The position numbers and the translations under genes are program-made. A stretch of DNA of 64,000 nt from Pseudomonas xionganensis (lineage in GTDB: Bacteria; Pseudomonadota; Gammaproteobacteria; Pseudomonadales; Pseudomonadaceae), in contig NZ_WKJZ01000001.1 of assembly GCF_009763245.1 (NCBI RefSeq), positions 1,916,810-1,980,809 of the forward strand, given 5' to 3'. The notes below the pieces were generated by a model that saw only the letters and a program-made list of their open reading frames with translations, did no database searches and was not told where the DNA came from. Shown here piece by piece: positions 19,057-35,409 of the stretch; position 1 is the stretch's first letter; the number at the start of each line of letters is the position of its first letter.

Positions 19057-19073
19057 GAACGCTGGAGGTGAGC

Positions 19074-19442
19074 GTGAGTGCATTACTCAAGACCCAGGTC
19101 GATGCCGATCGGGTACTGGCCAAGGCACTGCTCAATACCCGCGAGCAATTGGGGCTGACGCAGCAGGAGCTGGCCGAGATTGTCGGTGTGCACCGCACGG
19201 CGATACCCCGCTGGGCGGAGAACGGCCTGCGGGCAGGCAGCAAGAGCGCCGAACTGGCCCTGCTGCTGATCCGTATCTACCGCTCGCTATTCGCCCTGTT
19301 TGGCGGTGATCTTGACGATATGCGCCATTTTCTCCGCACCTATAACCACCATCTGCACGCCGTGCCCCTGCAGCTGATGTTGCAGGTGCAGGGGCTGGTT
19401 CGGGTGATGGAGTATCTGGATGCCATTCGTGGCAAGGCCTAA
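19074..19442 (+). CDS. Xre/MbcA/ParS family antitoxin
   Basis: This 122-residue protein has a helix-turn-helix (LGLTQQELAEIVGVHRTAI, about residues 28-46) and a C-terminal MbcA/ParS/Xre toxin-binding region that includes LFGG and MRHFL. It is followed 36 bp later by a RES-domain gene, the canonical partner. Such antitoxins neutralise RES toxins and repress their own operon. The GTG at 19074 is chosen because GGAGG ends six bases before it. The GTG at 19068 overlaps the Shine-Dalgarno and is less likely. Confidence 0.9.
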   Translation: MSALLKTQVDADRVLAKALLNTREQLGLTQQELAEIVGVHRTAIPRWAENGLRAGSKSAELALLLIRIYRSLFALFGGDLDDMRHFLRTYNHHLHAVPLQLMLQVQGLVRVMEYLDAIRGKA

Positions 19443-19478
19443 GCGTCATTGAACCGGCCGGACAAGGAGTCTCTGCCC

Positions 19479-20231
19479 ATGGATATCTGGCAGGTTTGCA
19501 ACGGGATACAGCAGATCAGACCCCTGCGTGGGCGCCTGGTGCGCTTGGTGGAAAGTCAGGCCCAGGTGGCCACCCTGCAGCTGGTCGATACCCTGGCCGA
19601 GCAGGCGCTGCTTGAGGAGCTGCTGGAGAACAGCAAACCACCGTTGCCGGACAGCCACGAGCCGCTGCACTACCTGCTGCATACCCCGTTTCGTTACCCA
19701 CCGCTGCGCTGGGGCTCGCGCTTTGGCCGGGTGCATGAACCCAGCCTGTTCTACGGCGCCCAGCGCCTGGAAACGGCCATGGCCGAAGCGGCCTACTACC
19801 GTTTCGTGCTGTGGAGCGGCATGGCCAACCCGCCGCCCAGCGGGCGTATTCGCTCCGAACACAGCAGTTTCGAGGCCCGCTATCAGGTGCAGCGCGGCAT
19901 TCAGTTGCAACGCCCGCCTTTTGCCGGTTATCAGGCTGCAGTGGGGCATCCGCGTGACTACGCCGCCAGTCAGGCCCTGGGCAGCGCCATGCGCGCCGCC
20001 GAGGTACAGGCTTTCGAGTATCGCTCGGCCCGCTGTCCCGAGGCCGGGATCAATGTCGCCTTGTTCGTGCCCGCCGCCCTGGCGGAAAAGCGTCCGCGCA
20101 ACCTGCAGGCCTGGCTGTGCGAAACCACGGCTGACTATGTCGCCTTCAAGCATGCCCAGGTGCCCGACCAGCCGCGTCTGTTCCCGTTGCAGGGTTTCCT
20201 GCTCGAAGGCCAGCTGCCGCTGCCGGCTTGA
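19479..20231 (+). CDS. RES domain toxin (NAD-degrading family)
   Basis: This 250-residue protein has the RES signature residues: Arg in the RFGR segment, Glu in METAMAEAAYYR-like context and Ser in YAASQALG. RES toxins are known to deplete NAD+ in the cell. The N-terminal 65 residues before the core look like the longer RES subgroup. The ATG at 19479 has AAGGAG nine bases upstream, and an earlier in-frame TTG is rejected. Paired with the Xre antitoxin it forms a type II toxin-antitoxin system. Confidence 0.9.
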   Translation: MDIWQVCNGIQQIRPLRGRLVRLVESQAQVATLQLVDTLAEQALLEELLENSKPPLPDSHEPLHYLLHTPFRYPPLRWGSRFGRVHEPSLFYGAQRLETAMAEAAYYRFVLWSGMANPPPSGRIRSEHSSFEARYQVQRGIQLQRPPFAGYQAAVGHPRDYAASQALGSAMRAAEVQAFEYRSARCPEAGINVALFVPAALAEKRPRNLQAWLCETTADYVAFKHAQVPDQPRLFPLQGFLLEGQLPLPA

Positions 20232-20406
20232 AAGGGCTTTGGCGAGGCTGAAAGTGCCCTCAAAAAGGGCGCTTCGGACAGCCAGGGGGCGGACTTGTGC
20301 ACAATTGCGAGGCGACTTGTCAATCGACTTTTTGTGATTGCGCTAAACCCTTGATTCTTCGTTACGATTTTATAAGTCAATGAAAAATATGAACTTTTTT
20401 AGCTGG

Positions 20407-20506
20407 TGAAAAAAACGCCAGTTTGACTCAAGCCCCCAAGGCATAGGCGCTGGCGGCGCTTGCGCCCATGTTATCCACGAAGTTATCCACAGCTTCTGTG
20501 GATTAA
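20407..20506. other. DnaA-box module, copy A, in a 450-bp gene-free region
   Basis: In the gap 20232-20681, an AT-rich tract is followed by AAAAAACGCC, a CAAGCCCCC block, then two forward DnaA-type boxes (TTATCCACG at 20471, TTATCCACA at 20483) and an inverted one (TGTGGATTA at 20497). A second copy with matching order and spacing lies at 35312-35409. It could bind DnaA, act as a regulatory site or be part of an untranslated RNA. No gene is seen in the gap. A possible promoter for the Sel1 gene is TTTACC-16-TAGAGT near 20622-20650. Confidence 0.55.
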
Positions 20507-20681
20507 GCCAAGCGCTTGCTCTAGATCGCGGGCTGCGCACAGTGGCGTCGCGGTCCGGCCCATATAGAGGACTGCAATGGGGTCGCGCAAGCGTGCGACA
20601 TTAGGCCTCCTGCGCAGGGCTTTACCTCGGCGAAAAAAGGAGTAGAGTGGCGCGCCTTCCCGGCTACCCCTTCCGTGTTTT

Positions 20682-21086
20682 ATGCCTCGTGCACTGACCC
20701 GCATTCCCGCACCCGCTTCTTCTTCGGTCAAACGTCTCCCTACCCGCGTTGCCCTCTGGCTGCTGGACAGCCCGCGCCTGGGCCATGCGGTCAGCGTCAA
20801 GCGCTTCGCCGGGCGCCTGCTCAAGCAGCCGGCCTTGCAGGGCGAGGTGCCGGCGCAGAGCCGCCTGGGTGCCATGCTCTGCCGCGAATGCGGTAACGCC
20901 CGTGATCGGCGTATCGGCCTGGAACTGCTGCGCCAGGCGGCGCGGGCCGGTGATCGACGTGCGCAACTGGAGCTCGGCCAACTGTGCCAGGAGTCCAGCA
21001 GCGAGCAGCAGCAGGCGCGTCACTGGCTGGAACTGGCCGCAGGCCAGGGTTGTGAGCAGGCCCGCCAGTTGCTCAAGCAACTCTGA
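20682..21086 (+). CDS. Sel1-repeat-like protein of unknown role
   Basis: This 134-residue protein has two degenerate Sel1-type helical repeats in its second half (LELLRQAARAGDRRAQLELG and ARHWLELAAGQGCEQARQLL). The N-terminal part is basic, with no signal peptide. It resembles the Sel1-type gene at 37444 in layout, with a basic N-terminus and then RLLx and AAxxG repeats. Sel1 repeats usually mediate protein contacts, but no specific function can be given. It lies just before rmuC. Confidence 0.75.
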   Translation: MPRALTRIPAPASSSVKRLPTRVALWLLDSPRLGHAVSVKRFAGRLLKQPALQGEVPAQSRLGAMLCRECGNARDRRIGLELLRQAARAGDRRAQLELGQLCQESSSEQQQARHWLELAAGQGCEQARQLLKQL

Positions 21087-21136
21087 TTCAGGTCTGATAC
21101 TGGTTATACTCCCAGTACTTTGCTGTGGAGTTGCCC

Positions 21137-22630
21137 ATGCCCATTGATCTTGTCCCGCTGCTGACCCCCTTGCTGCTCGGTTTTACCGCGGCGGCCCTGC
21201 CTCTGCTTTATCTGGCCTGGTCGCTGCAGCGGCGCCTGACCAGCCAGGCGTTGCAGCTCAGCCTGCTGCAGGAGCGCCTGGATCATGCCCAGCTGGCCCA
21301 GAGCGGCCTGGCCGCCCAGCTCGACGATTGCCGCGAAGAGCTGGTGGAAATCAGCGAGATCAAGGTCGAGCAACAGGCTGAACTGGCTGCGCTGCGCCGC
21401 GAGGCGGAGCTGCTGCAGCACGAGCGGCAGATTGCCCGCGAGGCGGCCCATGCCTGGCAGCAGCAGCGTGAGCAGCAGGAAGGTGAAATCCGCCGCCTGG
21501 ATGCCCAGCGCGCTGCCCTGGCGGCCGAGCTCAAGGAGCAGCAGGACAGCCACCAGCAGCGTCTGCAGGACCTGCAGGGTTCGCGCGACGAGCTGCGCGC
21601 CCAGTTCGCCGAGCTGGCCGGGAAGATCTTCGATGAGCGGGAGCAACGCTTTGCCGAGACCAGCCAGCAGCAGCTGGGCCAGTTGCTCGACCCGCTCAAG
21701 GAACGCATCCAGGCCTTCGAGAAACGGGTGGAGGACAGCTACCAGCAGGAGGCCCGCGAGCGCTTTTCCCTGGGCAAGGAACTGGAGCGCCTGCAGCAGC
21801 TCAACCAGCGCCTGGGCGATGAGGCGACCAATCTGAGTCGTGCCCTCAAGGGCCAGAAAACCCAGGGCAACTGGGGTGAGCTGGTGCTGGAGCGGGTGCT
21901 GGAACACGCCGGGCTGCAGAAGGGCCGCGAGTACCAGACCCAGGTCAGCCTGAAGAGCGCCGAGGGTGAGCGCTTCCAGCCCGATGTGCTGATTCGCCTG
22001 CCCGGTGAGCGTCAGGTGGTGGTGGACGCCAAGGTCAGCCTGAGCGCTTACCAGCAGTTTATTGCCGCCGAGGACGAGGCTACGCGCCAGCAGGCGCTCA
22101 AGCAGCATGCGCTGTCGCTGCGCAGCCATCTGAAGGGCCTGTCGCTGAAGGACTACCAGCGCCTGGAAGGGCTGCACAGCCTGGATTTCGTGCTGCTCTT
22201 CGTACCCATCGAGGCGGCCTTTGCCGCAGCCTTACAGGCTGACCCGGGGCTGTTTCAGGAGGCCTTCGATCAGCATATCGTGATCGTCAGCCCCACCACT
22301 CTGCTGGCCACCCTGCGGGTGATCGACAGCCTGTGGCGTCAGGAGCGGCAGAATCAGAACGCCCGGGAAATCGCCGAGCGTGCCGGGGCGCTGTACGACA
22401 AGTTTGTCGCCTTTGTTCAGGACCTGGATGAGATGGGCGCGCGCCTGCAGCAGCTGGACAAGGCCTATGCCGGGGCGCGCAACAAACTGTGCGAGGGCCG
22501 CGGCAATATCGTCAGCCGGGTGGAGAACCTCAAGCTGCTCGGCGCCCGGGCCAGCAAGAGCCTGGCGCCGGAGCTGCTGGAGCGCGCTGCGGGCCTGCCG
22601 CAGCTGGAAGAAAGCGCAGCCGGGGACTGA
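21137..22630 (+). CDS. rmuC: RmuC family DNA recombination protein
   Basis: This 497-residue protein has an N-terminal membrane anchor (residues about 5-28), a long coiled coil (about 35-190) and the RmuC nuclease-like domain (QGNWGELVLERVLEHAGL, DVLIRLPGERQVVVDAKVSL). RmuC limits DNA rearrangements. The ATG at 21137 has GGAG six bases upstream, and the GTG at 21125 is less likely. Its stop lies next to that of the convergent hydrolase gene. Confidence 0.94.
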   Translation: MPIDLVPLLTPLLLGFTAAALPLLYLAWSLQRRLTSQALQLSLLQERLDHAQLAQSGLAAQLDDCREELVEISEIKVEQQAELAALRREAELLQHERQIAREAAHAWQQQREQQEGEIRRLDAQRAALAAELKEQQDSHQQRLQDLQGSRDELRAQFAELAGKIFDEREQRFAETSQQQLGQLLDPLKERIQAFEKRVEDSYQQEARERFSLGKELERLQQLNQRLGDEATNLSRALKGQKTQGNWGELVLERVLEHAGLQKGREYQTQVSLKSAEGERFQPDVLIRLPGERQVVVDAKVSLSAYQQFIAAEDEATRQQALKQHALSLRSHLKGLSLKDYQRLEGLHSLDFVLLFVPIEAAFAAALQADPGLFQEAFDQHIVIVSPTTLLATLRVIDSLWRQERQNQNAREIAERAGALYDKFVAFVQDLDEMGARLQQLDKAYAGARNKLCEGRGNIVSRVENLKLLGARASKSLAPELLERAAGLPQLEESAAGD

Positions 22631-23536
22631 TCAGGCCGTCTCGCGCTGGGGCCGTGTTGCATGGCTTTCCTGCTGCCGGGCAAACTCGGCCACCCAGCCG
22701 GCCAGCCGCTGCGGCTGGCTCAGCAGTTGCCAATGCCCGGCGCGGGCCTCGCGGACACGCAAAGGTCCGGTCCAGTGCTGCAAACCGTCGAACAGTTGCG
22801 GCCGCACGAACAGATCCCGGTTCGGAATAATCAGCTGCACCGGCACTTGGGTATGGCGCTGACGGGGCCTGAACAGGCTGCGGATAAAGTTGGCGCGATA
22901 CAGGCGGATGCCGTGGATGGCATCGCTGAGCTGGCTCGGGTTGGCGGCTGGCTGCACCCCTTCCAGGCGACCGATCAGCCGGTGCCAGACCCTGGCCAGG
23001 CCCAGACGCCAGGTCAGCTCCGGCAGCCAGGGCAGGTGGAACAGCAGCACATACCAGGAATGCAGCAGCTGGCCGCCGGCCTCACCCCAGGCGCGCACGC
23101 TGGCCCGACCCAGGCGCTGGCGCAGCCAGTGACCGACATGATCCAGGCAGGGTCCGGAAATACTGGTGTAGGAGGCGAGAAAGTCGGTGCTGCGTGGCTC
23201 GCACACCGCTTCCCAGCTCTGGATTGAGCCCCAGTCGTGGGCGATCAGGTGCACCGGCCGGTCCGGGCTGACCGCGCGCACCACGGCGCGCAGGTCGCGG
23301 CCCAGCTGGGGCAGGCGGTAGGCGGCGTTGCCGGCAGGCTTGTCCGAGGCACCAAAGCCGCGCACATCGTAGGCGAACAGCTGAAACTCGTCCTGGAGCT
23401 GCTCGATCAGTGGCAGCCAGGTGTGGTGGCTGTCCGGATAACCATGCACCAGCAGCAGCGGTATGCCACCGGGCTTGCCCCAGCGGTAGACCGCCAGCTC
23501 CACGCCATCGCTGTTGACCCGCTGCACTGCCTGCAT
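22631..23536 (-). CDS. Alpha/beta hydrolase, epoxide hydrolase-like
   Basis: This 301-residue protein has the alpha/beta hydrolase pattern: oxyanion segment HGYPDSHHTW, a nucleophile elbow AHDWGS with Asp in place of Ser, and a C-terminal AGHWQ histidine. An Asp nucleophile is typical of epoxide hydrolases and haloalkane dehalogenases. The substrate is unknown. In some pseudomonads a similar domain is fused to a short-chain dehydrogenase, but no such fusion is seen here. Confidence 0.85.
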   Translation of the reverse strand: MQAVQRVNSDGVELAVYRWGKPGGIPLLLVHGYPDSHHTWLPLIEQLQDEFQLFAYDVRGFGASDKPAGNAAYRLPQLGRDLRAVVRAVSPDRPVHLIAHDWGSIQSWEAVCEPRSTDFLASYTSISGPCLDHVGHWLRQRLGRASVRAWGEAGGQLLHSWYVLLFHLPWLPELTWRLGLARVWHRLIGRLEGVQPAANPSQLSDAIHGIRLYRANFIRSLFRPRQRHTQVPVQLIIPNRDLFVRPQLFDGLQHWTGPLRVREARAGHWQLLSQPQRLAGWVAEFARQQESHATRPQRETA

Positions 23537-23610
23537 CGTCTCGTCCTCCTGCTGGATCGGCCGATTCTCGGTAATCGGGCGGCTGACCGCAGCCGGCGAA
23601 AAGTCGGGCG

Positions 23611-24867
23611 CTACAGCAGAAGCAGGATCAGGGCGCCGAACAGCAGGCCGGCGGCCATCACCGGCAGGATCAGCACGGCCAGGGCCCGGCCGCCAATCAG
23701 GACGACCAGAAAGGCCTTGACCAGGCTGTTGCTCAAGGCGGCGAGAAAGATGCCGCGTACAGCGACCTCATTGCCCAGCTCACCCTGGGCGCTGCGGGCC
23801 AGGGACAGGGTGATGGCATCGACATCCGCCAGCCCGGAGAGCAGGGCCACGGCATACACGCCGCGATCGCCGAACCAGGCCTGGGCCGCTTCCACCAGCA
23901 GCAGGATCAGCGCCAGCAGGGCGGCGAAGCGCAGGGCCGGGGCCAGTTCGAAGGGGTTTTTCAGCGGCGCATCGGCGCTGTCCGCCACTTCATTATCGGC
24001 ACGTCGGTAGTACAGCCAGGCGCCGCCGGCATAGATCAGGGTGGCGCCGAGCAGCGGCCAGATCAACTGCGGCAGCAGTCCGGGATTGACCAGGCCGACT
24101 TCCAGCAGGACGCGCGGGAACATCAGGGCCGAGGTCGCCAGCAGGCCGCAGGCCAGCAGTGCATTGAGCCTGCGGCCTTCGGCCAGGCGCGCCAGGGTGA
24201 CGGTCATGGCGGTGGAGGCGACGATGCCGCCGAGCAGGGCGGTGATCAGCAGGCCATGGCGGGTACCGACCAGGCGGATGGCGATATAGGCGGCAAAGCC
24301 GATGGCGGCGATCAGCACCACCATCCACCAGATCACATAGGGGTTGAACGCCTGCCAGGGGCCATAGCCCTGGTTGGGCAGGGCCGGCAGAAGCACCAGG
24401 GAGATAAACAGCAGCTTGAGGGTACCGGACAGTTCCTCCTCACTCAGTTGCTGCAGGGCGCCGTGCAGCACCCGTTTGAGGCTCAGCAGCAAGGCCACCG
24501 CCACGGCCCCGGCTGCGGCCAGGGGCGGGTGGCCGGCCACAGCCAGGCTGCCGAGCAGGAAGGTGATCAGCATGGCCACTTCACTGGTCAGGCCCATATC
24601 GCCGGTGCGCTGCAATTCGCCGAAGTAGGAGGCGATCACCAGGGCGGCGAAGCTGGCGAAGATCACCGCCCAGGCGACCACGCCAAAACGCTCGCCCAGC
24701 AGCAGGGCGAAGCCGCCGAGCAGGGCGCTGAGGGCAAAGGTGCGGATACCGGCCACCAACTGCCGGTCGTCATCATTGCGGCTTTGCCAGCCGCGCTCGG
24801 CGCCGATCAGCAGCCCGGCGGCCAGGGCACTGGCAAAGTTCAGCAGGGTGTCGAGGGCATCGGGCAT
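23611..24867 (-). CDS. MgtC/SapB family membrane protein with DUF4010
   Basis: This 418-residue protein has about a dozen hydrophobic segments. The N-terminal MgtC-type region (LLIGAERGWQSRN, GIRTFALSALLGG) is joined to a DUF4010 region. Relatives are poorly understood inner-membrane proteins, and some MgtC proteins are linked to magnesium-limited growth. No Mg riboswitch-like leader is seen. A GCCGGCAG hairpin lies just upstream, between this gene and the SSS kinase. Confidence 0.82.
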   Translation of the reverse strand: MPDALDTLLNFASALAAGLLIGAERGWQSRNDDDRQLVAGIRTFALSALLGGFALLLGERFGVVAWAVIFASFAALVIASYFGELQRTGDMGLTSEVAMLITFLLGSLAVAGHPPLAAAGAVAVALLLSLKRVLHGALQQLSEEELSGTLKLLFISLVLLPALPNQGYGPWQAFNPYVIWWMVVLIAAIGFAAYIAIRLVGTRHGLLITALLGGIVASTAMTVTLARLAEGRRLNALLACGLLATSALMFPRVLLEVGLVNPGLLPQLIWPLLGATLIYAGGAWLYYRRADNEVADSADAPLKNPFELAPALRFAALLALILLLVEAAQAWFGDRGVYAVALLSGLADVDAITLSLARSAQGELGNEVAVRGIFLAALSNSLVKAFLVVLIGGRALAVLILPVMAAGLLFGALILLLL

Positions 24868-24934
24868 GCTGCGGCCTTGAATTGGGGCGATGCCGGCAGT
24901 TTAGCTGCCGGCGTGCAGAGGGTGTTGCCTCAGC

Positions 24935-27900
24935 TCAACGCAGACTTAGATGACGGCTGAGCAGGGCGCGCAAGGCCGCCGGCTTGACCGGTTTGGCCAG
25001 GAAATCCAGACCCGCGGCGTGTACCTGGGCCACCAGCTCCGGACGGCCGTCGGCACTGATCACCACGCCGGGCAGCGGTTCGCCCAGGCGGGTGCGCAGC
25101 CAGGCCATCAGCTCGGTACCGGTTTCGCCTTCGTCCAGGTGGTAGTCCACCAGGGCCAGTTGCGGGCGCACGTCTTCGCTGAGCAGGTGCTCGCATTCCA
25201 GGCGGTTGCGCGCCGTCCACACCTGGCAACCCCAGCGCGACAGCAGGCTGTGCATGCCGGTGAGGATGCTGTCCTCGTTGTCGATGCACAGCACCTGGGC
25301 GCCGCTCAGGGCCTGGCCGTTGATTTCCACGGGCGCCGCCACGGGTTTGGGCGTGCTCTGCTGGGCCAGGGGGATGCAGACGCTGAACACGCTGCCTTTG
25401 CCCGGCCAGGAACGCACCTCCAGGCGATGACCGAGCACCCGGCACAGGCCGTCGGCAATCGCCAGGCCCAGGCCCAGGCCCTTTTCGGCGCGGGTCTGGT
25501 GGCTGTCCAGGCGTTTGAATTCCTCGAAGATCACCTTGCGCTTGTCCTCGGGGATGCCCGGGCCGCGGTCCCAGACTTCCAGGCGCAATTGCCCACCCTG
25601 GCGACGCACGCCCAGCAACACGCGGCCCTTGGCGTAGCGGAAGGCGTTGGTCAGGAAGTTCTGCAGCACCCGGCGCAGCAGCTTGCTGTCGCTGTCCACG
25701 CGCAGGCGGCTGCCACGGATGCGCAGGTCGATACCCTGCTCATTGGCCAGGGCGCGGAATTCGGTGCCCAGGGTGGCAAACAACTCATTGAGCACAAAGG
25801 GCTGGCGTTCCGGGTTGATACGGCCATTTTCCAGGCGCGAGATATCCAGCAGGTCGCTGATCAGGTCTTCGGCCGAGCGCAGTGAACTGTCCAGGTGCCG
25901 CACCAGTTCCCGGGCCTCCAGGGGCAGGCTGTCTTCCTGGTGGGACAGGGCGGCGGAGAACAGGCGGGCGGCGTTCAAGGGTTGCATCAGGTCATGGCTG
26001 ACGGCCGCGAGAAAGCGCGTCTTCGACTGGTTGGCGGCTTCGGCCACCGCCTTGGCATCGCCCAGCGCCTGGTTGAGCTGGGACAGCTCGAAGGTGCGTT
26101 CGGCCACCCGCTGCTCCAGGCCCTCGTTGGCTTCCTTGAGGGCGCGCTCGGCCTCGCGGAACTCGGTGATGTCGGTGAAACTCATGACGAAACCGCCGCC
26201 AGGCATGGGGTTGCCGATCAGTTCGATGACCCGGCCATTGGGGAACAGGCGCTCGGAGGTGTGCGCGGTGCCCTGGCGCATCCAGTACAGGCGCTTGCTC
26301 ACATGCTCCTCGATATCGCCACTGCCGAGCAGGCCGCGCTGGGCGTTGAAACGGATCAGTTCGGCCACCGGGCGGCCCACATAGACCTGGCCCTCGGGGT
26401 AGTTGAACAGCTCGATATAGCGGTGATTCCAGGCCACCAGGCGCAGGTTCTGGTCGACCACGCTGATGCCCTGGGTGATGTTCTCGATCGCGCCCTGCAA
26501 CAGGGCGCGGTTGAACTGCAGCACCTCGGATGCTTCGTCGACGATGCGTACGACGTCCTCGACCTGCATCTCGCGCCCTTCAATGGCGGCCTTGACCACC
26601 GCGCGGGTGCTGGAGGCGCCCAGTACCCCGGCCAGCAGGCGTTCGGTATGGGCGATCCAGTCGCTGTTGGCCGTCTGGTTGGGGTCGAAGGGCTTGCCCT
26701 GGCGGTAGGCGAAACGCATAAAGCTCTGCCGCGCCCGATCCTCGCCGACAAAGCGACTGGCCAGCAGCAGCAGATCGTCCACCTGCACCGCCAGCAGGCT
26801 GCGGCTGCTGGGTTTGGCGCCGAAGTCATGGCCGATAAAGCGCCCGGCCTGCCAGTGCTCGGCGACCCGGGTGCGGGAGAAATAGGACACCCAGGCAAAC
26901 AGCAGGAAGTTGCCTGCCAGGGACAGCAACACGCCGCGGGTCAGGGCGTCCATCTGAAAGCCGATGGGCGCATGCAGCAGGGTCTGCAGCCCGGGGAATA
27001 CCTCCAGCGGCCAGCCCAGGCCGCGGGCAATCAGGGGCAGGATCAGGGTGTAGAACCAGATCAGGGCGCCAAAGATTAGCCCGGCGAACACCCCCTGGCG
27101 GTTGGCCTGCTTCCACACCAGGGCGCCGAACATGGCCGGGGCCAGCTGGCCGATGGCGGCGAACGACACCTGGCCGATGGTGGCCAGGCTGGCGCCCTCG
27201 CCGAGCAGGCGATAGCAGACATAGGCCAGCAGCAGGATCAGCACGATGCTGACGCGGCGGGCCGTGAGCATCCAGTGGCGGAAGGCCTCGAAGGGGCGCT
27301 CGGTGTTTTTCCGGCGCAGCAGGGCCGGCAGCAGCATGTCGTTGCTGATCATGGTCGACAGCGCCACCGAGGCCACGATGACCATGCCGGTGGCCGCCGA
27401 GGCGCCGCCGATAAAGGCCAGCAGGGCCAGGGCCGGGTGGGCCTGGGCCAGGGGCAGGCTGATGACGAAGGAGTCCGGGGTGACGCCGACCGGCAGCAGC
27501 ATCTGCCCGGCCAGGGCGATGGGCACCACGAACAGTGCGGCCAGCACCAGGTAGGCGGGGAACACCCAGCGCGCCAGGTTGAGGTCCTTCGGCTCGATAT
27601 TTTCCACCACGGTGACATGGAACTGCCGCGGCAGGCAGATGATGGCGATCATCGCCAGGCCGGTCTGGGTCAGCATGGCCGGCCAGTTCACCGTATGCGC
27701 CCAGAACTCGTCGAGGGCCGGACTGGCTTTGGCCTGGCTGAACAGATCGCCGAAACCGTTGTACAGGCCGTAGGTGACAAAAGTGCCGACTGCGAGGAAG
27801 GCCAGCAGCTTGACCAGGGACTCGAAGGCAATCGCCAGGACCATGCCGCGGTGGTGCTCGGTGACATCCAGATTGCGCGTACCGAACAGAATGGTGAAGA

Positions 27901-28411
27901 GCGCCAGGATCAGTGACACGATCAGCGCCGTGTCCTGGGCGCGGGTGCCGGCGGACTCGGCCCCAGCCCCCACCAGCAGGTTGACCCCGAGGACGATGCC
28001 CTTGAGCTGCAGGGCGATATAGGGCAGCACGCCCACCAGGCAGATCAGCGCCACCACCACCGCCAGGTTCTGCGACTTGCCGTAGCGGGCGGCGATAAAG
28101 TCGGCGATGGAGGTGATGTTTTCCTGTTTGCTGATCATCACCATCTTCTGCAGCACCCAGGGGGTGAAGATCAGAATGATGATCGGCCCGAGATAGATCG
28201 GCAGAAAGGCCCACAACTGCTCGGCGGCCTGGCCCACGGCGCCGAAGAAGGTCCAGCTGGTGCAGTACACCGCCAGCGACAGCGAGTAGACCCAGGCGCG
28301 CACCTGCGGTGACATCGGGGCGCGACGGCGATCGCCATAGAAGGCGATGGTGAACAGCAGGGCCATATAGATCAGGGCAACGCTGGCAATCAGCCCGCTG
28401 GACAGGGTCAT
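24935..28411 (-). CDS. SSS-domain hybrid sensor histidine kinase
   Basis: This 1158-residue protein begins with a sodium:solute symporter-like domain of about 13 membrane segments (residues about 1-490). A PAS domain, a coiled coil, HisKA with His806 (SHDLMQPLN), HATPase (GLGLAIADGL) and a C-terminal receiver follow. The design resembles CbrA and PAO1 PA3271, in which a transporter-like module is coupled to a kinase. The ligand is unknown. The ATG at 28411 (MTLSSG) starts the first membrane segment. The longer frame to 29191 lies antisense to the GNAT gene and is rejected. Its H-box resembles that of the erc kinase. Confidence 0.92.
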   Translation of the reverse strand: MTLSSGLIASVALIYMALLFTIAFYGDRRRAPMSPQVRAWVYSLSLAVYCTSWTFFGAVGQAAEQLWAFLPIYLGPIIILIFTPWVLQKMVMISKQENITSIADFIAARYGKSQNLAVVVALICLVGVLPYIALQLKGIVLGVNLLVGAGAESAGTRAQDTALIVSLILALFTILFGTRNLDVTEHHRGMVLAIAFESLVKLLAFLAVGTFVTYGLYNGFGDLFSQAKASPALDEFWAHTVNWPAMLTQTGLAMIAIICLPRQFHVTVVENIEPKDLNLARWVFPAYLVLAALFVVPIALAGQMLLPVGVTPDSFVISLPLAQAHPALALLAFIGGASAATGMVIVASVALSTMISNDMLLPALLRRKNTERPFEAFRHWMLTARRVSIVLILLLAYVCYRLLGEGASLATIGQVSFAAIGQLAPAMFGALVWKQANRQGVFAGLIFGALIWFYTLILPLIARGLGWPLEVFPGLQTLLHAPIGFQMDALTRGVLLSLAGNFLLFAWVSYFSRTRVAEHWQAGRFIGHDFGAKPSSRSLLAVQVDDLLLLASRFVGEDRARQSFMRFAYRQGKPFDPNQTANSDWIAHTERLLAGVLGASSTRAVVKAAIEGREMQVEDVVRIVDEASEVLQFNRALLQGAIENITQGISVVDQNLRLVAWNHRYIELFNYPEGQVYVGRPVAELIRFNAQRGLLGSGDIEEHVSKRLYWMRQGTAHTSERLFPNGRVIELIGNPMPGGGFVMSFTDITEFREAERALKEANEGLEQRVAERTFELSQLNQALGDAKAVAEAANQSKTRFLAAVSHDLMQPLNAARLFSAALSHQEDSLPLEARELVRHLDSSLRSAEDLISDLLDISRLENGRINPERQPFVLNELFATLGTEFRALANEQGIDLRIRGSRLRVDSDSKLLRRVLQNFLTNAFRYAKGRVLLGVRRQGGQLRLEVWDRGPGIPEDKRKVIFEEFKRLDSHQTRAEKGLGLGLAIADGLCRVLGHRLEVRSWPGKGSVFSVCIPLAQQSTPKPVAAPVEINGQALSGAQVLCIDNEDSILTGMHSLLSRWGCQVWTARNRLECEHLLSEDVRPQLALVDYHLDEGETGTELMAWLRTRLGEPLPGVVISADGRPELVAQVHAAGLDFLAKPVKPAALRALLSRHLSLR

Positions 28412-28669
28412 GGGTACTCCACTGGTATAACGTCGGGCCTTGCCCGGTCGAGATGAGGGCCTGTGCAGCTTTCCTGACGGGGTCAGCCGGCCTGCGCATA
28501 CGCCGGGACAATACTGCATAACAGTGTTGCAGCAATATACCGGGGCGTCAGGCGCGACCAAGGTCGCAGGTCGGGCCTGGAGTCGGCAATCATCCCTGTT
28601 GTGGATTGTGCACAGCACGCGGGCCTGATAGCGTGCCCGCCTGCGCCGTATTCCGTGGAGGGATCCCCG

Positions 28670-29239
28670 ATGTTCAAGCCGCAACCTGTCAGTCTGCAAC
28701 GCGGAGCGTTGCGTCTGGACCCCATGCAGGAAAGTGATGTCCATGCCCTGGCCGAGTTGGCCGAGGCCAATCGCCAACAGCTCGTCTATATGAACGGCAC
28801 TCAGCGTCTGGACTGGTATCGCCAGGCCCTCAAGGAACAGAGCGCCGGCAAGGCCCTGCCGCTGGTGGTACGCCTGGGCGAGCAGCTGCTGGGCACTACC
28901 CGCTATGGCGACTTTATGACCAATCTGCCGGCCTGTGAGATCGGCTGGACCTGGCTGGATCAGGGCCAGCACGGCAGCGGGCTGAATACCCAGATCAAAT
29001 ACCTGATGCTCAAGCATGCCTTCGACAACTGGCAGATGGTGCGGGTGCAGCTGAAGACCGCGGCCAGCAATCTGCGCTCGCAGCGGGCCATCGAAAAGCT
29101 TGGGGCCGTGCGTGAGGGCTTGCTGCGCAATCATCGCCGCCTGGATGACGGTCGTCTGGACGATACGCTGCTGTACAGCATCACCGATCACGAGTGGCCG
29201 GCGCTCAAGCAGCAGATGGAGGCGCGCTTTAGCGCATAA
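28670..29239 (+). CDS. GNAT family N-acetyltransferase
   Basis: This 189-residue protein has a RimJ/RimL-like GNAT pattern: RLDPMQESDV at the start, the EIGWTWLDQGQHGSGLNT acetyl-CoA region, and LKTAASNLRSQRAIEKLGAVREGLLR near the C-terminus. The substrate is probably a protein N-terminus or amino compound, by family. The ATG at 28670 follows GGAGGG. It lies upstream of azlCD and may be cotranscribed with it. Confidence 0.9.
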   Translation: MFKPQPVSLQRGALRLDPMQESDVHALAELAEANRQQLVYMNGTQRLDWYRQALKEQSAGKALPLVVRLGEQLLGTTRYGDFMTNLPACEIGWTWLDQGQHGSGLNTQIKYLMLKHAFDNWQMVRVQLKTAASNLRSQRAIEKLGAVREGLLRNHRRLDDGRLDDTLLYSITDHEWPALKQQMEARFSA

Positions 29240-29256
29240 GTCATCGAGCCCGTGTT

Positions 29257-29979
29257 GTGACTGTCAGTCGTGCGCGCAGCCTGCTGCAGGGAATGCGTGA
29301 CAGCATTCCGATGATTGTCGGCATCCTGCCGTTCGGCCTGATCTACGGTGCGCTGGCCTCGCTGGCCGGCCTGACGCTGTGGCAGGCACTGGGCATGTCG
29401 CTGCTGGTGTATGCCGGTTCGGCGCAGTTTATCGCCATCAGCCTGCTGGGGCTGGGCAGTGGTATGGCGGTGATTCTGCTCACCACCTTTGTCGTCAACC
29501 TGCGCCATGTGCTCTACAGCGCCGCCCTGCAACCCTATGTCGGTGGCTTGTCGCAGCGCTGGCGCCTGCCCCTGGCCTTCGGCCTGACCGACGAAACCTT
29601 TGCCGTGGTGCAACGTCGTTACCTGAGCCGTGGCATGGCCGATCACGCGCAGTGGTATCACGCCGGTGTCGCCGTGGCGCTTTACCTGTCCTGGGTCGGC
29701 AGTTCGCTGGTGGGAGCGCTGTTCGGTCAGCAGGTGCCCAATCTGGCGGGCTGGGGCCTGGACTTCGCCATGCTGGCGACCTTTATCGGCATCGTCGTGC
29801 CGGCGCTGCGCAATCAGCCACAGATTGCCGCCGCCCTGGTGGCCGCGGCGGTGGCGCTGCTCTGCCATGCCTGGCCTTACAAGCTGGGGCTGATGGCCGC
29901 CGCCTTGAGCGGAATCGTCATCGGTGTGGCGCTGGAGCGACGTGAGTCGCCGGCGGCGGTCGAGGAGGGCGGGCGATGA
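29257..29979 (+). CDS. azlC: AzlC family branched-chain amino acid exporter subunit
   Basis: This 240-residue membrane protein has the AzlC signature (IPMIVGILPFGLIYGALASLAG, YAGSAQFIAISLLG) and about seven hydrophobic segments. With AzlD it forms an exporter of branched-chain amino acids in characterised relatives. The GTG at 29257 is called because it sets the family N-terminus, though the Shine-Dalgarno is weak. An ATG at 29293 is the alternative. It overlaps azlD by ATGA. Confidence 0.9.
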   Translation: MTVSRARSLLQGMRDSIPMIVGILPFGLIYGALASLAGLTLWQALGMSLLVYAGSAQFIAISLLGLGSGMAVILLTTFVVNLRHVLYSAALQPYVGGLSQRWRLPLAFGLTDETFAVVQRRYLSRGMADHAQWYHAGVAVALYLSWVGSSLVGALFGQQVPNLAGWGLDFAMLATFIGIVVPALRNQPQIAAALVAAAVALLCHAWPYKLGLMAAALSGIVIGVALERRESPAAVEEGGR

Positions 29980-30305
29980 GCATCTGGCTGCTGATTCTCG
30001 GCATGGCGCTGATCACCTTTGTGATTCGCTACAGCCTGTTCGCCTTTCCCGATCTGCGCTTCCCGGCATTGGTGCGCCAGGGCCTGCACTATGTGCCCAC
30101 CGCAGTGCTGACGGCCATTGTGGTGCCGGGCATGTTGCTACCTGATGGCCAGCACTGGCATCTGGCTCTGGACAATGCCTACCTGCTGGCGGGGCTGGCG
30201 TGTATTGCCATTGCTGCGCTCACCCGACACCTGCTGGCAACCATTGGCGGAGGCCTGCTGGTGTTCTTTCTGCTGCGTGGGTTGTTCGGCCAGTTACCCC
30301 TGTAA
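29976..30305 (+). CDS. azlD: AzlD family transport subunit
   Basis: This 109-residue, very hydrophobic protein has the AzlD pattern (FVIRYSLFAF, YVPTAVLTAIVVPGML). It partners AzlC, and the ATG overlaps the azlC stop as ATGA, so the two are coupled. Confidence 0.92.
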   Translation: MSIWLLILGMALITFVIRYSLFAFPDLRFPALVRQGLHYVPTAVLTAIVVPGMLLPDGQHWHLALDNAYLLAGLACIAIAALTRHLLATIGGGLLVFFLLRGLFGQLPL

Positions 30306-30418
30306 CTGCGTCATGGCGCCGATTTTGCGGTAAAAAACCGGCATTGTTGTGGCTTTGCGCAACGCTCTTGCAGTCAAATGCTCAACGCTCGCCTGGCTAA
30401 AACAGAGGTACACGGACG

Positions 30419-32293
30419 ATGACCCAACAATCGCAATTTGCCCTGCTGGGCAAGAAGCGCTTTCTACCGTTTTTTATCACCCAGCTGCTGGGTGCCTTTA
30501 ACGACAATATCTTCAAGCAGGCGCTGATCCTCACCATCCTGTTCAAACTCAGCGCCGAGGCGGACAAGAGCCTTTTGGTCAATCTCTGCGCCTTGCTGTT
30601 TATCCTGCCGTTCTTCCTGTTCTCCGCCCTGGGTGGCCAGTTTGGCGAGAAGTTCGCCAAGGATGCGCTGATCCGCCAGATCAAGCTGGCCGAGGTGTGC
30701 ATCATGGTCCTGGGCGCCGTCGGCGTGCTGCTGGGCAATCTGCCGCTGATGCTGGCGGTACTGTTCGCCATGGGTACCCAGTCGGCGCTGTTCGGCCCGG
30801 TGAAGTACTCGATCCTGCCCCAGCACCTCAGGGAGGAGGAACTGGTGGGCGGTAACGCCCTGGTGGAAATGGGCACCTTCCTGGCCATTCTCGCCGGCAC
30901 CATCGGCGCCGGTATCATCATGGCCAATAGCGCCTATGCCAGTATCGTGGCGAGCTCGGTGGTGGTGGTAGCGGTAGCCGGTTACCTGGCCAGTCGCGGC
31001 ATTCCCCGGGCGGCGGCGGCCATGCCGGAGCTTAGGCTTGACTGGAATATCCTGCGCCAGTCCTGGCTGATCATGAAGCTTGGCCTGGGCCAGCGCCCGG
31101 CGGTGTCGCGTTCGCTGATCGGCAACTCCTGGTTCTGGTTTCTCGGCGCCATCTACCTGACCCAGATCCCGGCCTACGCCAAGGACTGGCTGCACGGCGA
31201 CGAAGGTGTGGTGACCCTGATTCTTACCGTGTTCTCCTTGGGGATTGGTCTGGGCTCGATGCTCTGTGAGCGCATGAGTGGGCACAAGGTGGAGATCGGC
31301 CTGGTGCCGTTCGGCTCCATTGGTCTGACGGTTTTCGGCATGCTGCTGTGGTGGCATTCCGGTGGTTTCCCCGAGGCTGCGCAGCCCCATGACTGGCTGA
31401 GCCTGCTGGGCCATGGCCAGGCCTGGTGGATTCTCGGCTCGATCCTCGGTATCGGCCTGTTCGGTGGCTTCTATATCGTGCCGCTCTATGCGCTGATCCA
31501 GTCGCGCACGGTGGAGCATGAGCGGGCGCGGGTGATCGCCGCCAACAACATCCTCAATGCGCTATTCATGGTGATCTCGGCGATTGTCTCGATCCTCTTT
31601 CTCAGCGTCGCCGAACTGTCGATTCCGCAGCTGTTTTTGACCATTTCGCTGATGAACATCGCGGTCAACAGCTATATCTTCAAGATCGTCCCCGAATTCA
31701 GCATGCGCTTTATGATCTGGCTGCTCAGCCACTCGATGTATCGGGTAGAGCACAGGGGGTTGGAGGCAATCCCGGACGAAGGCGCGGCAGTGCTGGTGTG
31801 CAACCATGTGTCCTTTGTCGATGCACTGTTGATCGGTGGCGCGGTGCGCCGGCCGGTACGCTTTGTCATGTACTACAAGATCTACAACCTGCCGGTGCTC
31901 AACTTTATCTTCCGCACCGCCGGTACCGTGCCGATTGCCGGGCGTAACGAAGACCTGCTGATCTACGACGCGGCGTTCAAGAAAATCGCCGAATATCTGC
32001 GCAATGGTGAAGTGGTGTGCATCTTCCCGGAAGGCAAGTTGACCACTGATGGCGAGCTCAATGAGTTCAAGAACGGTATCGAACGTATCATCGTGGAAAA
32101 CCCGGTGCCGGTGATTCCCATGGCCCTGCAGGGCTTGTGGGGCAGCTTTTTCAGCCGTGATCCGCACAAGGGCCTGTTCAAGCGTCTGTGGTCGCGCATT
32201 ACCCTGGTGGCCGGTACGCCGGTAGCGCCCGATCTGGTCAGGCGCGAGTCGCTGCAGGCTCAGGTGGCCGAACTGCGGGGTGAGCGGCGTTAA
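30419..32293 (+). CDS. LplT-like MFS transporter fused to PlsC acyltransferase
   Basis: This 624-residue protein has an MFS domain (about residues 1-420) with the LplT-type start (QLLGAFNDNIFKQAL), followed by a PlsC domain with NHVSFVDALL (H-x4-D) and FPEGKLTTDGE. In enterobacteria LplT flips lysophospholipids that Aas then re-acylates. Here transport and acylation are on one chain, without the acyl-ACP synthetase part. It likely repairs or recycles inner-membrane phospholipids. A terminator lies 13 bp after the stop. Confidence 0.9.
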   Translation: MTQQSQFALLGKKRFLPFFITQLLGAFNDNIFKQALILTILFKLSAEADKSLLVNLCALLFILPFFLFSALGGQFGEKFAKDALIRQIKLAEVCIMVLGAVGVLLGNLPLMLAVLFAMGTQSALFGPVKYSILPQHLREEELVGGNALVEMGTFLAILAGTIGAGIIMANSAYASIVASSVVVVAVAGYLASRGIPRAAAAMPELRLDWNILRQSWLIMKLGLGQRPAVSRSLIGNSWFWFLGAIYLTQIPAYAKDWLHGDEGVVTLILTVFSLGIGLGSMLCERMSGHKVEIGLVPFGSIGLTVFGMLLWWHSGGFPEAAQPHDWLSLLGHGQAWWILGSILGIGLFGGFYIVPLYALIQSRTVEHERARVIAANNILNALFMVISAIVSILFLSVAELSIPQLFLTISLMNIAVNSYIFKIVPEFSMRFMIWLLSHSMYRVEHRGLEAIPDEGAAVLVCNHVSFVDALLIGGAVRRPVRFVMYYKIYNLPVLNFIFRTAGTVPIAGRNEDLLIYDAAFKKIAEYLRNGEVVCIFPEGKLTTDGELNEFKNGIERIIVENPVPVIPMALQGLWGSFFSRDPHKGLFKRLWSRITLVAGTPVAPDLVRRESLQAQVAELRGERR

Positions 32294-32305
32294 ATCGTCG
32301 AGATG

Positions 32306-32335
32306 AAAAAGCCCGCCAGCTTGGCGGGCTTTTTT
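32306..32335. terminator. Bidirectional Rho-independent terminator
   Basis: AAAAAGCCCGCCA pairs with TGGCGGGCTTTTT around a short loop. It can end transcription of the MFS-PlsC gene and, from the other strand, of sugE. Confidence 0.93.
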
Positions 32336-32350
32336 GTGCGTTTCGAGCGG

Positions 32351-32665
32351 CTAGTGGCTGAGCTTTAGCCCGATCAGGCCGCAGAGGATCAGGGCCACGC
32401 TGGCGATGCGCAGCAGGCTCAGGGCCTCGCCAAACAGGATGATGCCAGCAATTACCGTCCCGACTGCGCCGACGCCGGTCCAGATCGCATAGGCGGTGCC
32501 CAGGGGCAACTGCCTCATGGCCAGGCCGAGCAATGCCAGGCTGACGATCATCGCCGCAACAGTCAGCAGGGTAGGCAGGGGTCGGGTAAAGCCGTCGCTG
32601 TATTTCAGGCCGACAGCCCAGCCGACTTCGAACAGGCCGGCCAGCAGCAGAATGATCCAGGACAT
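32351..32665 (-). CDS. sugE: SugE/Gdx guanidinium exporter (SMR family)
   Basis: This 104-residue protein has four membrane segments and the key SMR glutamate (Glu13 in [12 protein letters not shown]). The GAVGT and GEALSLLR segments are typical of SugE/Gdx rather than EmrE. Family members export guanidinium ions. The ATG at 32665 follows AGTGGAGG, and the longer frame that reads through the leader is rejected. The leader holds a two-hairpin guanidine-II riboswitch, which supports the function. Confidence 0.93.
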
Positions 32666-32688
32666 ACAAACCTCCACTAACAGATAGA

Positions 32689-32736
32689 GGGGCCGTCCCG
32701 GGGTGGTCACTCGCAGAGTGGTGAGGTCGTCCTCAC
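32689..32736 (-). promoter_or_regulatory. Guanidine-II (mini-ykkC) riboswitch upstream of sugE
   Basis: Read on the minus strand, the leader contains GTGAGG-ACGA-CCTCAC (32721-32736) and then GGG-ACGG-CCC (32690-32699). Two hairpins with ACGR loops shortly before the Shine-Dalgarno are the hallmark of the guanidine-II riboswitch, which frees the ribosome site when guanidine binds. The first stem is six pairs and the second is at least three. The downstream gene is a guanidinium exporter, as expected for this class. Confidence 0.85.
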
Positions 32737-32812
32737 GTTGTGCGGTATTTTGCACATTGGCAGGGGGGGCAAGCCGCAGAGGATCAGTGGTCGCTCTGCG
32801 GCTGCGGGGCGC

Positions 32813-33733
32813 TTAGATTCCCTGGGGAATCTCTTCACCACCCAGGGCTTCGAACAGCGCCGGCAGGAAGTCCACCAGGGTCAGCATCATCAGGGTGAAG
32901 CTGGCGTCCTGCTGGCCCAGTGCGTCGTCACCGCCGTCCTGTTCCGCTTGCTCCTGCAGCAGGTCTTCGAAGCGCAGACGCTTGACCACCAGCTTGTCGT
33001 CCAGCACGAAGCTCAGCTTGTCCTGCCAGGCCAGGGACAGCTGGGTGACCTGCTTGCCAGAGGTCATGTGCAGCTGGATTTCGTCACTGGTCAGGTCCTG
33101 GCGCTTGCAACGCACCACGCCGCCGTCTTCATGGGTGTCACGCAGCTCGCACTCGTCCAGCACATGGAAGTCGGGGGCGGCCTGCTGAGCCTTGACCCAG
33201 TCGGTGAGGGTGGCGCTGGGAGCGATCTTCACGGTCAGTGGGCGCACCGGCAGCGAGCCGATGGCCTCACGCAGGGTCGAAAGCAGGTCTTCGGCGCGCT
33301 TGGCACTGGCCGAGTCGACCAGGATCAGGCCCTGCTTGGGCGCGATGGCGGCAAAGGTGGCGGATTTGCGAATAAAGGCGCGCGGCAGGAAGGTCTGCAC
33401 GATTTCGTCCTTGAGCTGGTCGCGCTCTTTCTTGTAGACCTTGCGCATCTGCTCGGCTTCGATCTCGTCGACCTTGTCCTTCAGTGCATCGCGCACCACG
33501 CTGCCCGGCAGGATGCGTTCTTCCTTGCGCGCGGCGATCAGCAGGAAGTCACCGCTGACGTGTACCAGTGGCGCGTCGCCGCCTTTGCCAAAGGGCGCGA
33601 TAAAGCCATAGGTGCTCAGTTCCTGGCTGGCGCAAGGGCGGGCCGGTTTAGCTAACAGCGCCGTTTCGAGCGCCTCGGCATCAAAGGGGATGTCCTGGGT
33701 GAGGCGATAGACCAGCAGGTTACGAAACCACAT
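32813..33733 (-). CDS. rdgC: RdgC, recombination-associated protein
   Basis: This 306-residue protein begins [13 protein letters not shown] and is the usual RdgC length. RdgC is a ring-shaped DNA-binding protein that limits RecA activity. The ATG at 33733 is chosen over an upstream in-frame ATG because it gives the family length and follows a purine-rich site. The sequence is complete with no disruption. Confidence 0.96.
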
Positions 33734-33952
33734 AGGGGGGTGAATCTCCATTGACAGGCCGGCCAGCAGGGGCGGGCAGCGGATGGGGCGGCAGCGTCTG
33801 GCTACAGAACGCTATACGGGCGGCGTCGATCCATCAGACCACGACGCGCCTGCCCGGTTTTATTTGGGGGCGCATTATTCCCTTGCTTGAGGCGTTAGGC
33901 CAAGCCTGCGCTAAACCATTGCTGCGCCAATAAAAAATTTTCAAAACAGTGC

Positions 33953-33981
33953 TTGCCAAGGTGTCGAAGGCTGTCTAGAAT
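33953..33981 (+). promoter_or_regulatory. Sigma-70 promoter for the tRNA-Val/tRNA-Asp operon
   Basis: TTGCCA and TAGAAT are separated by 17 bp and followed by a GC-rich GCGCCCC discriminator of the kind seen at stringently controlled stable RNA promoters. The first tRNA starts about 15 bases after the likely start site. Confidence 0.75.
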
Positions 33982-34002
33982 GCGCCCCACTTCGAGAGTG
34001 AA

Positions 34003-34078
34003 GGGTGATTAGCTCAGCTGGGAGAGCATCTGCCTTACAAGCAGAGGGTCGGCGGTTCGATCCCGTCATCACCCACCA
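34003..34078 (+). tRNA. tRNA-Val (anticodon TAC)
   Basis: The sequence folds as a normal tRNA of 76 bases with an encoded CCA end. The acceptor stem is GGGTGAT/ATCACCC, the anticodon loop is CTTACAA and the T loop GTTCGATCC is intact. It is the first gene of a two-tRNA operon. Confidence 0.97.
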
Positions 34079-34100
34079 AACTCGCTTTTTGAAGTTACGC

Positions 34101-34177
34101 GCAGCGGTAGTTCAGTCGGTTAGAATACCGGCCTGTCACGCCGGGGGTCGCGGGTTCGAGTCCCGTCCGCTGCGCCA
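34101..34177 (+). tRNA. tRNA-Asp (anticodon GTC)
   Basis: The 77-base sequence has acceptor stem GCAGCGG/CCGCTGC, anticodon loop CTGTCAC and an encoded CCA. A T-run follows at once (34178-34183), which may help end the tRNA transcript. Confidence 0.97.
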
Positions 34178-34378
34178 TTTTTTACTCCTCGCTTCACCTC
34201 CCCTGTGACAATCGCGTTTTATCTTGCCGTTCCGGCAAATCCTCAAATTTAAGCTAAACACCTGAACTTATACGCATTTTCCTGTTCCTAGCACGGTAGC
34301 CAGTGATCGCGACCGCCTGCTAAGCTCGCGCCTTCACTCGAATTGAAAGCCCCAGGGCCTAGCGGACAAGGAACAAGC

Positions 34379-35086
34379 ATGAAACAGCATCGTTTAGCAG
34401 CGGCAGTTGCCCTGGTGGGTCTGGTACTCGCCGGTTGTGATTCGCCAACCAGCGAAGTCAAACTGGAAACCGCCGCGCAGAAGGCCTCCTATGGCATAGG
34501 CCTGAACATGGGTCGCAGCCTGGCCCAGGAAGGCCTGGATGATCTGGATTCCCAAGCCGTTGCCCAGGGCATCGAAGATGCAATCGGCAAGAAAGAGCAG
34601 CGCCTGAAAGACGAAGAGCTGATGGAGGCCTTTGCCTTTTTGCAGCAGCGTTCCGAGCAGCGCCTGCAGTCGCTCAATGAAGAGTCGGCCAAGGCTGGCA
34701 AGGCCTTTCTGGAAGAGAACGGCAAGCGTGAAGGTGTGATCACCACCGCTTCGGGTCTGCAGTATGAAGTGATCAAGAAAGCCGATGGCGCTCAGCCGAC
34801 TGCCGATGATGTAGTGACCGTACACTATGAAGGCAAATTGACCGATGGCAGCGTATTCGACAGCTCCATCGAGCGTGGTAGCCCCATCGATCTGCCTGTG
34901 GGTGGTGTGATCCCGGGCTGGGTCGAAGGTCTGCAGCTGATGCATGTAGGTGAAAAGTACAAGCTGTATATCCCCAGCGAACTGGCCTACGGTGAGCAGA
35001 GCCCGACCCCGGCCATTCCCGCCAATTCGGTACTGGTGTTTGATCTGGAACTGATCGCTATCAAGGATGCCAACGCAGAGGGTTGA
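34379..35086 (+). CDS. FKBP-type peptidyl-prolyl isomerase lipoprotein
   Basis: This 235-residue protein has a lipoprotein signal ending in LVLAGC, an N-terminal Mip/FkpA dimerisation region (KASYGIGLNMGRSLAQ) and a C-terminal FKBP domain (VTVHYEGKLTDGSVFDSS, IPGWVEGLQLM, LAYGEQ). It should fold proteins in the envelope. The ATG at 34379 begins the signal peptide, and a 12-residue upstream extension is rejected. A strong terminator follows. Confidence 0.93.
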   Translation: MKQHRLAAAVALVGLVLAGCDSPTSEVKLETAAQKASYGIGLNMGRSLAQEGLDDLDSQAVAQGIEDAIGKKEQRLKDEELMEAFAFLQQRSEQRLQSLNEESAKAGKAFLEENGKREGVITTASGLQYEVIKKADGAQPTADDVVTVHYEGKLTDGSVFDSSIERGSPIDLPVGGVIPGWVEGLQLMHVGEKYKLYIPSELAYGEQSPTPAIPANSVLVFDLELIAIKDANAEG

Positions 35087-35104
35087 TCCTCCCTGTGTGC
35101 AGAC

Positions 35105-35130
35105 AACGCCCCGTCTCGACGGGGCGTTTT
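35105..35130 (+). terminator. Rho-independent terminator after the FKBP gene
   Basis: AACGCCCCGTC pairs with GACGGGGCGTT and is followed by T residues. It lies 19 bases after the stop codon. Confidence 0.92.
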
Positions 35131-35311
35131 CGTTTCTGCCTGCTGTCGATCAATTGGGCTTGACGGGAGGGCCGTAACCGGGCTGCATGGGGCGTGGCTG
35201 TTACTGTTATGCACATTTTTCGGGAATAGCTTGTGGGCGCTCGGTAACTTTCTGAAATATGCCGCTCTTTATCGGTAAAGCATTGATTTGTATGGGTTTT
35301 TGCTTGCTGGG

Positions 35312-35409
35312 TAAAAAACGCCCGATCTGTGTCGAGCCCCCGTGGGCTGGGCGTTTGCAGGGGTTATAAATAATCTGTTCACAAGGTTATCCACAGCTTT
35401 GGTGGATAA
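35312..35409. other. DnaA-box module, copy B, in the 35087-35452 gap
   Basis: AAAAAACGCCC, a CGAGCCCCC block and a GGGCGTTT that pairs with the first block precede a forward TTATCCACA (35387-35395) and an inverted GGTGGATAA (35401-35409). The two boxes are five bases apart, as in copy A, and the distance from ACGCC to the forward box is 65 bp against 64 bp in copy A. The rest of the gap is AT-rich, without a gene. The module sits upstream of the ykvA-like gene. Confidence 0.55.

Follow-up and report, generated by a model that had tools for sequence, protein, structure and literature searches.

What are the two intergenic modules with facing DnaA boxes that occur, in a common geometry, at two distant places in a window of 64,000 nucleotides from Pseudomonas xionganensis? 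The window is the whole stretch of DNA analysed here (assembly GCF_009763245.1, contig NZ_WKJZ01000001.1, positions 1,916,810 to 1,980,809). A preliminary description of the sequence had reported both modules, and both were present where it had placed them. Copy B (copy 1) has a RES-domain gene on one side and, on the other, a Sel1-like open reading frame that is followed by RmuC, and copy A (copy 2) is located between the genes for an FKBP-type isomerase and a DUF1232 protein. A DnaA-reactivating sequence (DARS) recharges DnaA, a process that was worked out in E. coli. In this study, we found that each copy is probably a DARS-type element (we estimate about 70% from the sequence evidence), which would recharge ADP-DnaA to ATP-DnaA and has the order core, Fis site, IHF site and box IV, which is not that of E. 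coli DARS1 or DARS2. Since the modules combine the DARS box layout with a larger surrounding layout that recurs in relatives, they look like a conserved replication control switch.

DnaA boxes were scanned with the consensus TTWTNCACA and scored as matches out of nine. As listed in Table 1, both copies contain box I, then after 5 bp an inverted box II, and then after 3 bp box III. The first two boxes had been noticed before, whereas box III and the fourth DnaA box described below had been overlooked, and the claim that the inverted box lies exactly five bases from TTATCCACA held in both copies, with GCTTC as the spacer in copy B and GCTTT in copy A. The distance from ACGCC to the box had been given as 64 and 65 bp and was counted here as 63 and 64 bp. 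On the minus strand, the core of copy A reads TTATCCACC-aaagc-TGTGGATAA-cct-TGTGAACAG and that of copy B reads TAATCCACA-gaagc-TGTGGATAA-ctt-CGTGGATAA. The corresponding cores in E. coli are TTATCCACT-attcc-TGTGGATAA-cca-TGTGTATTA for DARS1 and TTATTCACC-ttttc-TGTGGATAG-agt-TGTGAAGAA for DARS2, and the offsets of 14 and 12 are identical in copy A, copy B, DARS1 and DARS2 (L055 and L056 cores). PMC5742627 describes three DnaA boxes at this spacing, with box I opposite to boxes II and III, as the structure that DARS1 and DARS2 share, and names the head-to-head pair of boxes I and II as the hallmark of DARS.

We compared this geometry with chance and with other DnaA-bound sites. Allowing one mismatch, TTATCCACA had 14 matches against a shuffled mean of 3.77, and none of 100 shuffles reached 14. 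Neither the triple nor a pair of boxes at this spacing, both scoring at least 8/9 and with TGTGGAT in box II, was found in 200 first-order Markov windows. At E. coli polA, purH, nrdA, oriC/mioC and datA, the position of box I scored 3 to 5 of 9 despite a pair resembling boxes II and III, and at rpoH no such pair was found. The DARS geometry was absent from the E. coli oriC stretch, which speaks against an oriC identity, and also from the E. coli dnaA stretch, datA and three Pseudomonas dnaA loci. These results indicate that the three-box geometry separates DARS from the other DnaA-bound E. coli sites examined.

The similarity between the copies extends beyond the core. Positions beyond box III, on the box III side of the core, are given as plus offsets. 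In both copies, a block with a run of T at +44 is followed by an IHF-like site (+86 in copy A, +85 in copy B) and then by a fourth DnaA box (+159 and +167, respectively); AAAAAACGCC, which starts at 20410 in copy B and at 35313 in copy A, is the opposite strand of the T-run block. Two criteria were set post hoc, after inspection of the data: the +44 consensus and, for the IHF counts below, the form CATTGACTT with two mismatches.

Table 1. Features of the two modules, with positions in the window and DnaA box scores out of nine
Feature	Position	Strand	Remark
Copy A DnaA box I, TTATCCACC	35401..35409	-	8/9
Copy A DnaA box II, TTATCCACA	35387..35395	+	9/9, 5 bp from box I
Copy A DnaA box III, CTGTTCACA	35375..35383	+	7/9, 3 bp from box II
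Copy A T-run block, holds AAAAAACGCC on other strand	35309..35323	-	Fis-consensus match (up to one mismatch) at +51
Copy A IHF site, AATCAATGCTTTA	35276..35288	-	perfect IHF-consensus match at +86
Copy A fourth DnaA box, TTATGCACA	35207..35215	+	at +159, direction as boxes II and III
Copy B DnaA box I, TAATCCACA	20497..20505	-	8/9
Copy B DnaA box II, TTATCCACA	20483..20491	+	9/9
Copy B DnaA box III, TTATCCACG	20471..20479	+	8/9
Copy B T-run block, holds AAAAAACGCC on other strand	20404..20426	-	at +44; no Fis-consensus match within one mismatch
Copy B IHF-like site, TTTCATTGACTTA	20373..20385	-	at +85, two mismatches
Copy B second IHF site, AATCAAGGGTTTA	20344..20356	-	perfect IHF-consensus match at +114
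Copy B fourth DnaA box, TTGTGCACA	20295..20303	+	at +167; palindromic, other strand reads 20296-20304

Conservation was then examined in the genus. The two-box pattern was present in all 99 genomes and the three-box core pattern in 96 of them, P. xionganensis included, and the reversed controls gave 0 in both cases. Among the core places read with their flanks, 29 of 30 were located between FKBP and DUF1232 (hereafter locus A; L026 is elsewhere). Copy B was present at 29 of the 30 RmuC loci read (locus B), which were the best-scoring 30 of 59 genomes with RmuC and included P. xionganensis; L097 lacked the core. The core was also found at 77 of 80 FKBP loci from named Pseudomonas, and of the three without it (L244, L289 and L296) only the L244 sequence stops early, 185 bases past the gene. 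Lack of further copies or of conservation in other Pseudomonas had been proposed as grounds for rejecting the element; both were looked for and found. Three more cores of DARS geometry were observed in P. xionganensis itself (L001:1501-1535, L004:1501-1535 and L004:2020-2054, at C1:769547, C3:315969 and C3:316488). They have a weaker box III and a poorer fit to the flank profile described below (z 3.6, 1.6 and 0.8). Inspection by eye places one of them after a GcvR-like gene and the other two near a YqhA-like gene, and L059, from another genome, is seemingly the same YqhA locus.

The flank was conserved with the core. The best fit of the block was at +44 in 30/30 locus A and 29/29 locus B sequences. 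At locus A, a Fis-consensus match with up to one mismatch was found at +51 in 30/30 sequences and in 76/77 named loci. When two-mismatch CATTGACTT forms were counted, an IHF-like site near +85 in the same direction was present in 22/30 locus A and 25/29 locus B sequences; with up to one mismatch, the named locus A sequences had an IHF match at +85/86 in 66/77. Of the 29 locus B sequences, 13 had a second IHF match, a perfect one, at +113/114. The region from +130 to +200 held a fourth DnaA box in 68/78 named locus A sequences and in all 28 other locus B sequences.

A T-run could also belong to a transcription terminator or to a small RNA, with the DnaA boxes being incidental. One terminator-like match was found in copy A, on the minus strand at 35337-35320, whereas copy B had none, and the block keeps its fixed offset from the boxes in 59/59 sequences of loci A and B. 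Small RNAs, which had been proposed as something to look for at the modules, gained no support: Rfam gave no family at the gathering score at either module, only three weak sub-threshold matches. The consensus fold had zero pairs on either strand for 28 distinct locus A sequences and zero pairs on the element's strand for 29 locus B sequences; the other strand of locus B gave a trivial fold of -0.8 kcal/mol, whose z-score relative to column shuffles was -5.0. A structured RNA is not supported by these scans and by the folds of loci A and B, and we consider a terminator or small-RNA origin of the block very improbable. Elsewhere in the window, a TwoAYGGAY RNA match at 58325-58389 on the minus strand scored 44.8 bits, just over the gathering threshold of 43 bits. 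A repeat or mobile element was also rejected, as 141 bases of copy B searched against its own genome gave short matches, of which the best was copy A, and no second full copy.

We then asked how far the layout extends in the family and the class. A relaxed core was found in 93 of 198 family genomes, covering 10 of 19 genera, and in 186 of 377 Gammaproteobacteria genomes, P. xionganensis included, with 0 in the reversed control. From among the class matches listed, a set of 110 loci was taken, none from the Pseudomonas genus or family, with some genomes giving two; dropping L138, which has a short flank, and two near-identical flanks left 107 loci. Since these loci were selected by the core pattern, the evidence lies in their flanks alone. 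With up to one mismatch, Fis-consensus matches peaked at +51 with 70 matches in the 107 loci, while in 100 shuffles no offset had more than 8. Under the same criterion, 57 IHF-consensus matches fell at +84 to +86, where 300 shuffles gave a mean of 1.07 and a maximum of 5. DnaA boxes of at least 8/9, directed as boxes II and III, numbered 95 at +150 to +179 in 87 of the 107 loci, against a mean of 3.98 and a maximum of 9 in 100 shuffles. A flank profile built from the 107 loci, with the genus of the window excluded, gave z 6.4 for copy A and z 7.3 for copy B, and none of 2000 shuffles scored as high. The same profile gave z 3.2 to 7.6 for 30 locus A sequences and z 5.3 to 7.5 for 29 locus B sequences. 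These results suggest that the arrangement of the two copies is shared widely within the class.

The flanks of the E. coli elements were compared with the same profile. DARS1, in the bioD-uvrB gap, shares the three-box geometry and fitted the class profile (z 4.3, 0/2000 shuffles as high). However, the DARS1 stretch scanned had no IHF-consensus match within one mismatch, its Fis block is degenerate by our reading of the profile result, and uvrB was no neighbour of the 90 loci examined, one weak match aside. DARS2, upstream of mutH, has the identical three-box geometry and, beyond its box III, sites that resemble those of IHF and Fis. Its IHF-like sites, however, are at +58 and +74, 3 bp apart, as IBS1 and IBS2 are described in the literature, its perfect Fis match is at +110, and its neighbour genes are different. 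Both copies thus have IHF sites on the box III side in a register unlike that of DARS2; the Fis-consensus match of copy A, at +51, comes before IHF, and copy B has none within one mismatch at that place. Judged by this sequence layout, the copies are not classed as DARS2.

An IHF site with DnaA boxes on both sides also recalls datA, and the preliminary description had named both DARS and datA. The strongest rival to a DARS is therefore a datA-like or combined site, in which a DNA bend made by IHF would separate the core from box IV and ATP-DnaA would be hydrolysed or merely titrated, not recharged. DnaA boxes flank the IHF-like site, as core and box IV, in both copies and in 87 of the 107 class loci, and minimal datA is described as boxes 7 and 2, an IHF site and box 3, with DnaA boxes on both sides of IHF (PMC5742627). 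On the other hand, E. coli datA has no DARS-type core and no DARS-spaced box I (5/9 at that position), while the pair of boxes I and II is a described DARS mark. The DARS part of the earlier suggestion was thus supported, as the geometry is that of DARS1 and DARS2, the datA part did not hold for the geometry, and we regard a datA-like or mixed role as unlikely.

Both copies are upstream of genes, as had been noted for a Sel1-like and a YkvA-like gene. The DUF1232 gene, with its start taken as 35453, was confirmed (46.8 bits against a cut-off of 23); the Sel1-like open reading frame (20682-21086) was present at 29.1 bits, below the Pfam cut-off of 30.7. The modules might then be DnaA-regulated promoter elements for DUF1232 and Sel1/rmuC, with the boxes as operators. 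At E. coli promoters such as polA, purH and nrdA, DnaA is described as binding double boxes 3 bp apart and in the same direction (PMC11317965). DARS1 and DARS2 are themselves described in promoter regions (PMC5835720), so DARS and promoter roles could coexist. However, polA, purH and nrdA lack box I (3/9), neither gap yielded a sigma-70-like promoter, the conserved flank extends away from the downstream gene, and the class loci adjoin different genes. In tblastn searches, 30 class loci had no match to a panel of dnaA, dnaN, rpmH, mutH, FKBP, RmuC and others, nor to mnmG, rsmG and mioC, although the same queries did match another set. A purely promoter-bound role is therefore, in our judgement, decidedly unlikely. 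By eye, the element in other families is beside an LptF/G-like permease and a TelA-like protein (L122, L123, L125) or aspartate kinase (L126, L127). Around the two copies, an Xre/MbcA/ParS-type antitoxin gene and then the RES-domain gene (window 19068-20231) lie immediately left of copy B and are a likely toxin-antitoxin pair, and two tRNA genes (window 34003-34174) lie upstream of the FKBP gene.

The position of DARS on the chromosome is described as important in E. coli (PMC5010248). In 26 single-contig genomes, locus A had a median position of 0.57 of the way from dnaA to a dif-like site, 24 of them between 0.45 and 0.70 (exceptions, 0.85 in G014 and 0.04 in G029), and E. coli DARS1 and DARS2 are at 0.66 and 0.41 on the same scale. 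Rounded genome lengths were used, RmuC served as a stand-in for copy B, and G012 was left out because its match was of another type. The relative distance of locus A away from oriC is thus conserved, as for DARS in E. coli, although conserved gene order alone could produce the same mid-arm picture. Loci A and B were on opposite arms in 5 of the 16 genomes with both placed. P. xionganensis encodes DnaA, IHF-beta and an Hda-like domain (83.5 bits, below the cut-off of the DnaA model), as well as a homologue of Fis (61% over residues 25-96). The Hda-like gene, RmuC with copy B, and copy A were about 20 kb from each other in several genomes, for example at G036:C1 1979279, 1999593 and 2019367; in P. 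xionganensis the distance to the Hda-like gene is about 150 kb.

Several observations weigh against a DARS-type element. Box III of copy A is weak, and in copy B the Fis match within one mismatch fails and the IHF site at +85 carries two mismatches; the locus B set as a whole has no peak at +51. The IHF-like site near +85 is missing, by the criterion used above, in 8/30 locus A and 4/29 locus B sequences, and only 2 of 29 sequences of the genus-wide locus A sample have the fourth box. The core pattern is absent from 105 of 198 family genomes and 191 of 377 class genomes. The loci of P. xionganensis itself are at 0.76-0.77 of the arm (copy A at 0.77), and G029 is far nearer to dnaA. DARS2 has IHF before Fis, and therefore the order in the copies, T-run/Fis at +44/+51 and then IHF at +85/86, differs from it; the class profile matches the DARS2 flank badly (z 1.7, 86/2000 shuffles as high), with an improvement when an 11-base gap is allowed.

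ADP release is described as driven by DnaA molecules that face each other on boxes I and II, with help from IHF and Fis at DARS2 (PMC5742627 among others). By analogy with DARS2, Fis and IHF may regulate the present copies. ADP-DnaA would occupy boxes I and II in head-to-head orientation, with another DnaA on box III. Fis would act at the +51 block and, together with IHF, would bend the DNA, and in this way IHF may draw box IV towards the core. ADP would then be released from the strained complex, and apo-DnaA would depart and take up ATP, increasing the ATP-DnaA available for the next start at oriC.

The DARS2 core and its IHF and Fis sites are described as conserved among E. coli relatives (PMC4245941), and DARS outside E. 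coli is already known. Our literature search found no Pseudomonas DARS and no core-Fis-IHF-box IV register, and a Pseudomonas site in the original DARS paper (Fujimitsu 2009) or in supplements is still possible. More tentatively, the module of about 210 bp, with the DARS core, Fis at +51, IHF at +85 and box IV near +168, might be an ancestral gammaproteobacterial DnaA-recharging switch of which Pseudomonas kept two copies, and E. coli DARS1, DARS2 and perhaps datA might be its rearranged or reduced descendants. If the copies are DARS-type elements, Pseudomonas and many other Gammaproteobacteria would carry a uniform and easily deleted element for the control of replication timing. The fixed register would allow exact mutations for the roles of IHF, Fis and the distant fourth box in ADP release, and would offer a way to ask whether DnaA recharging and hydrolysis share one site.

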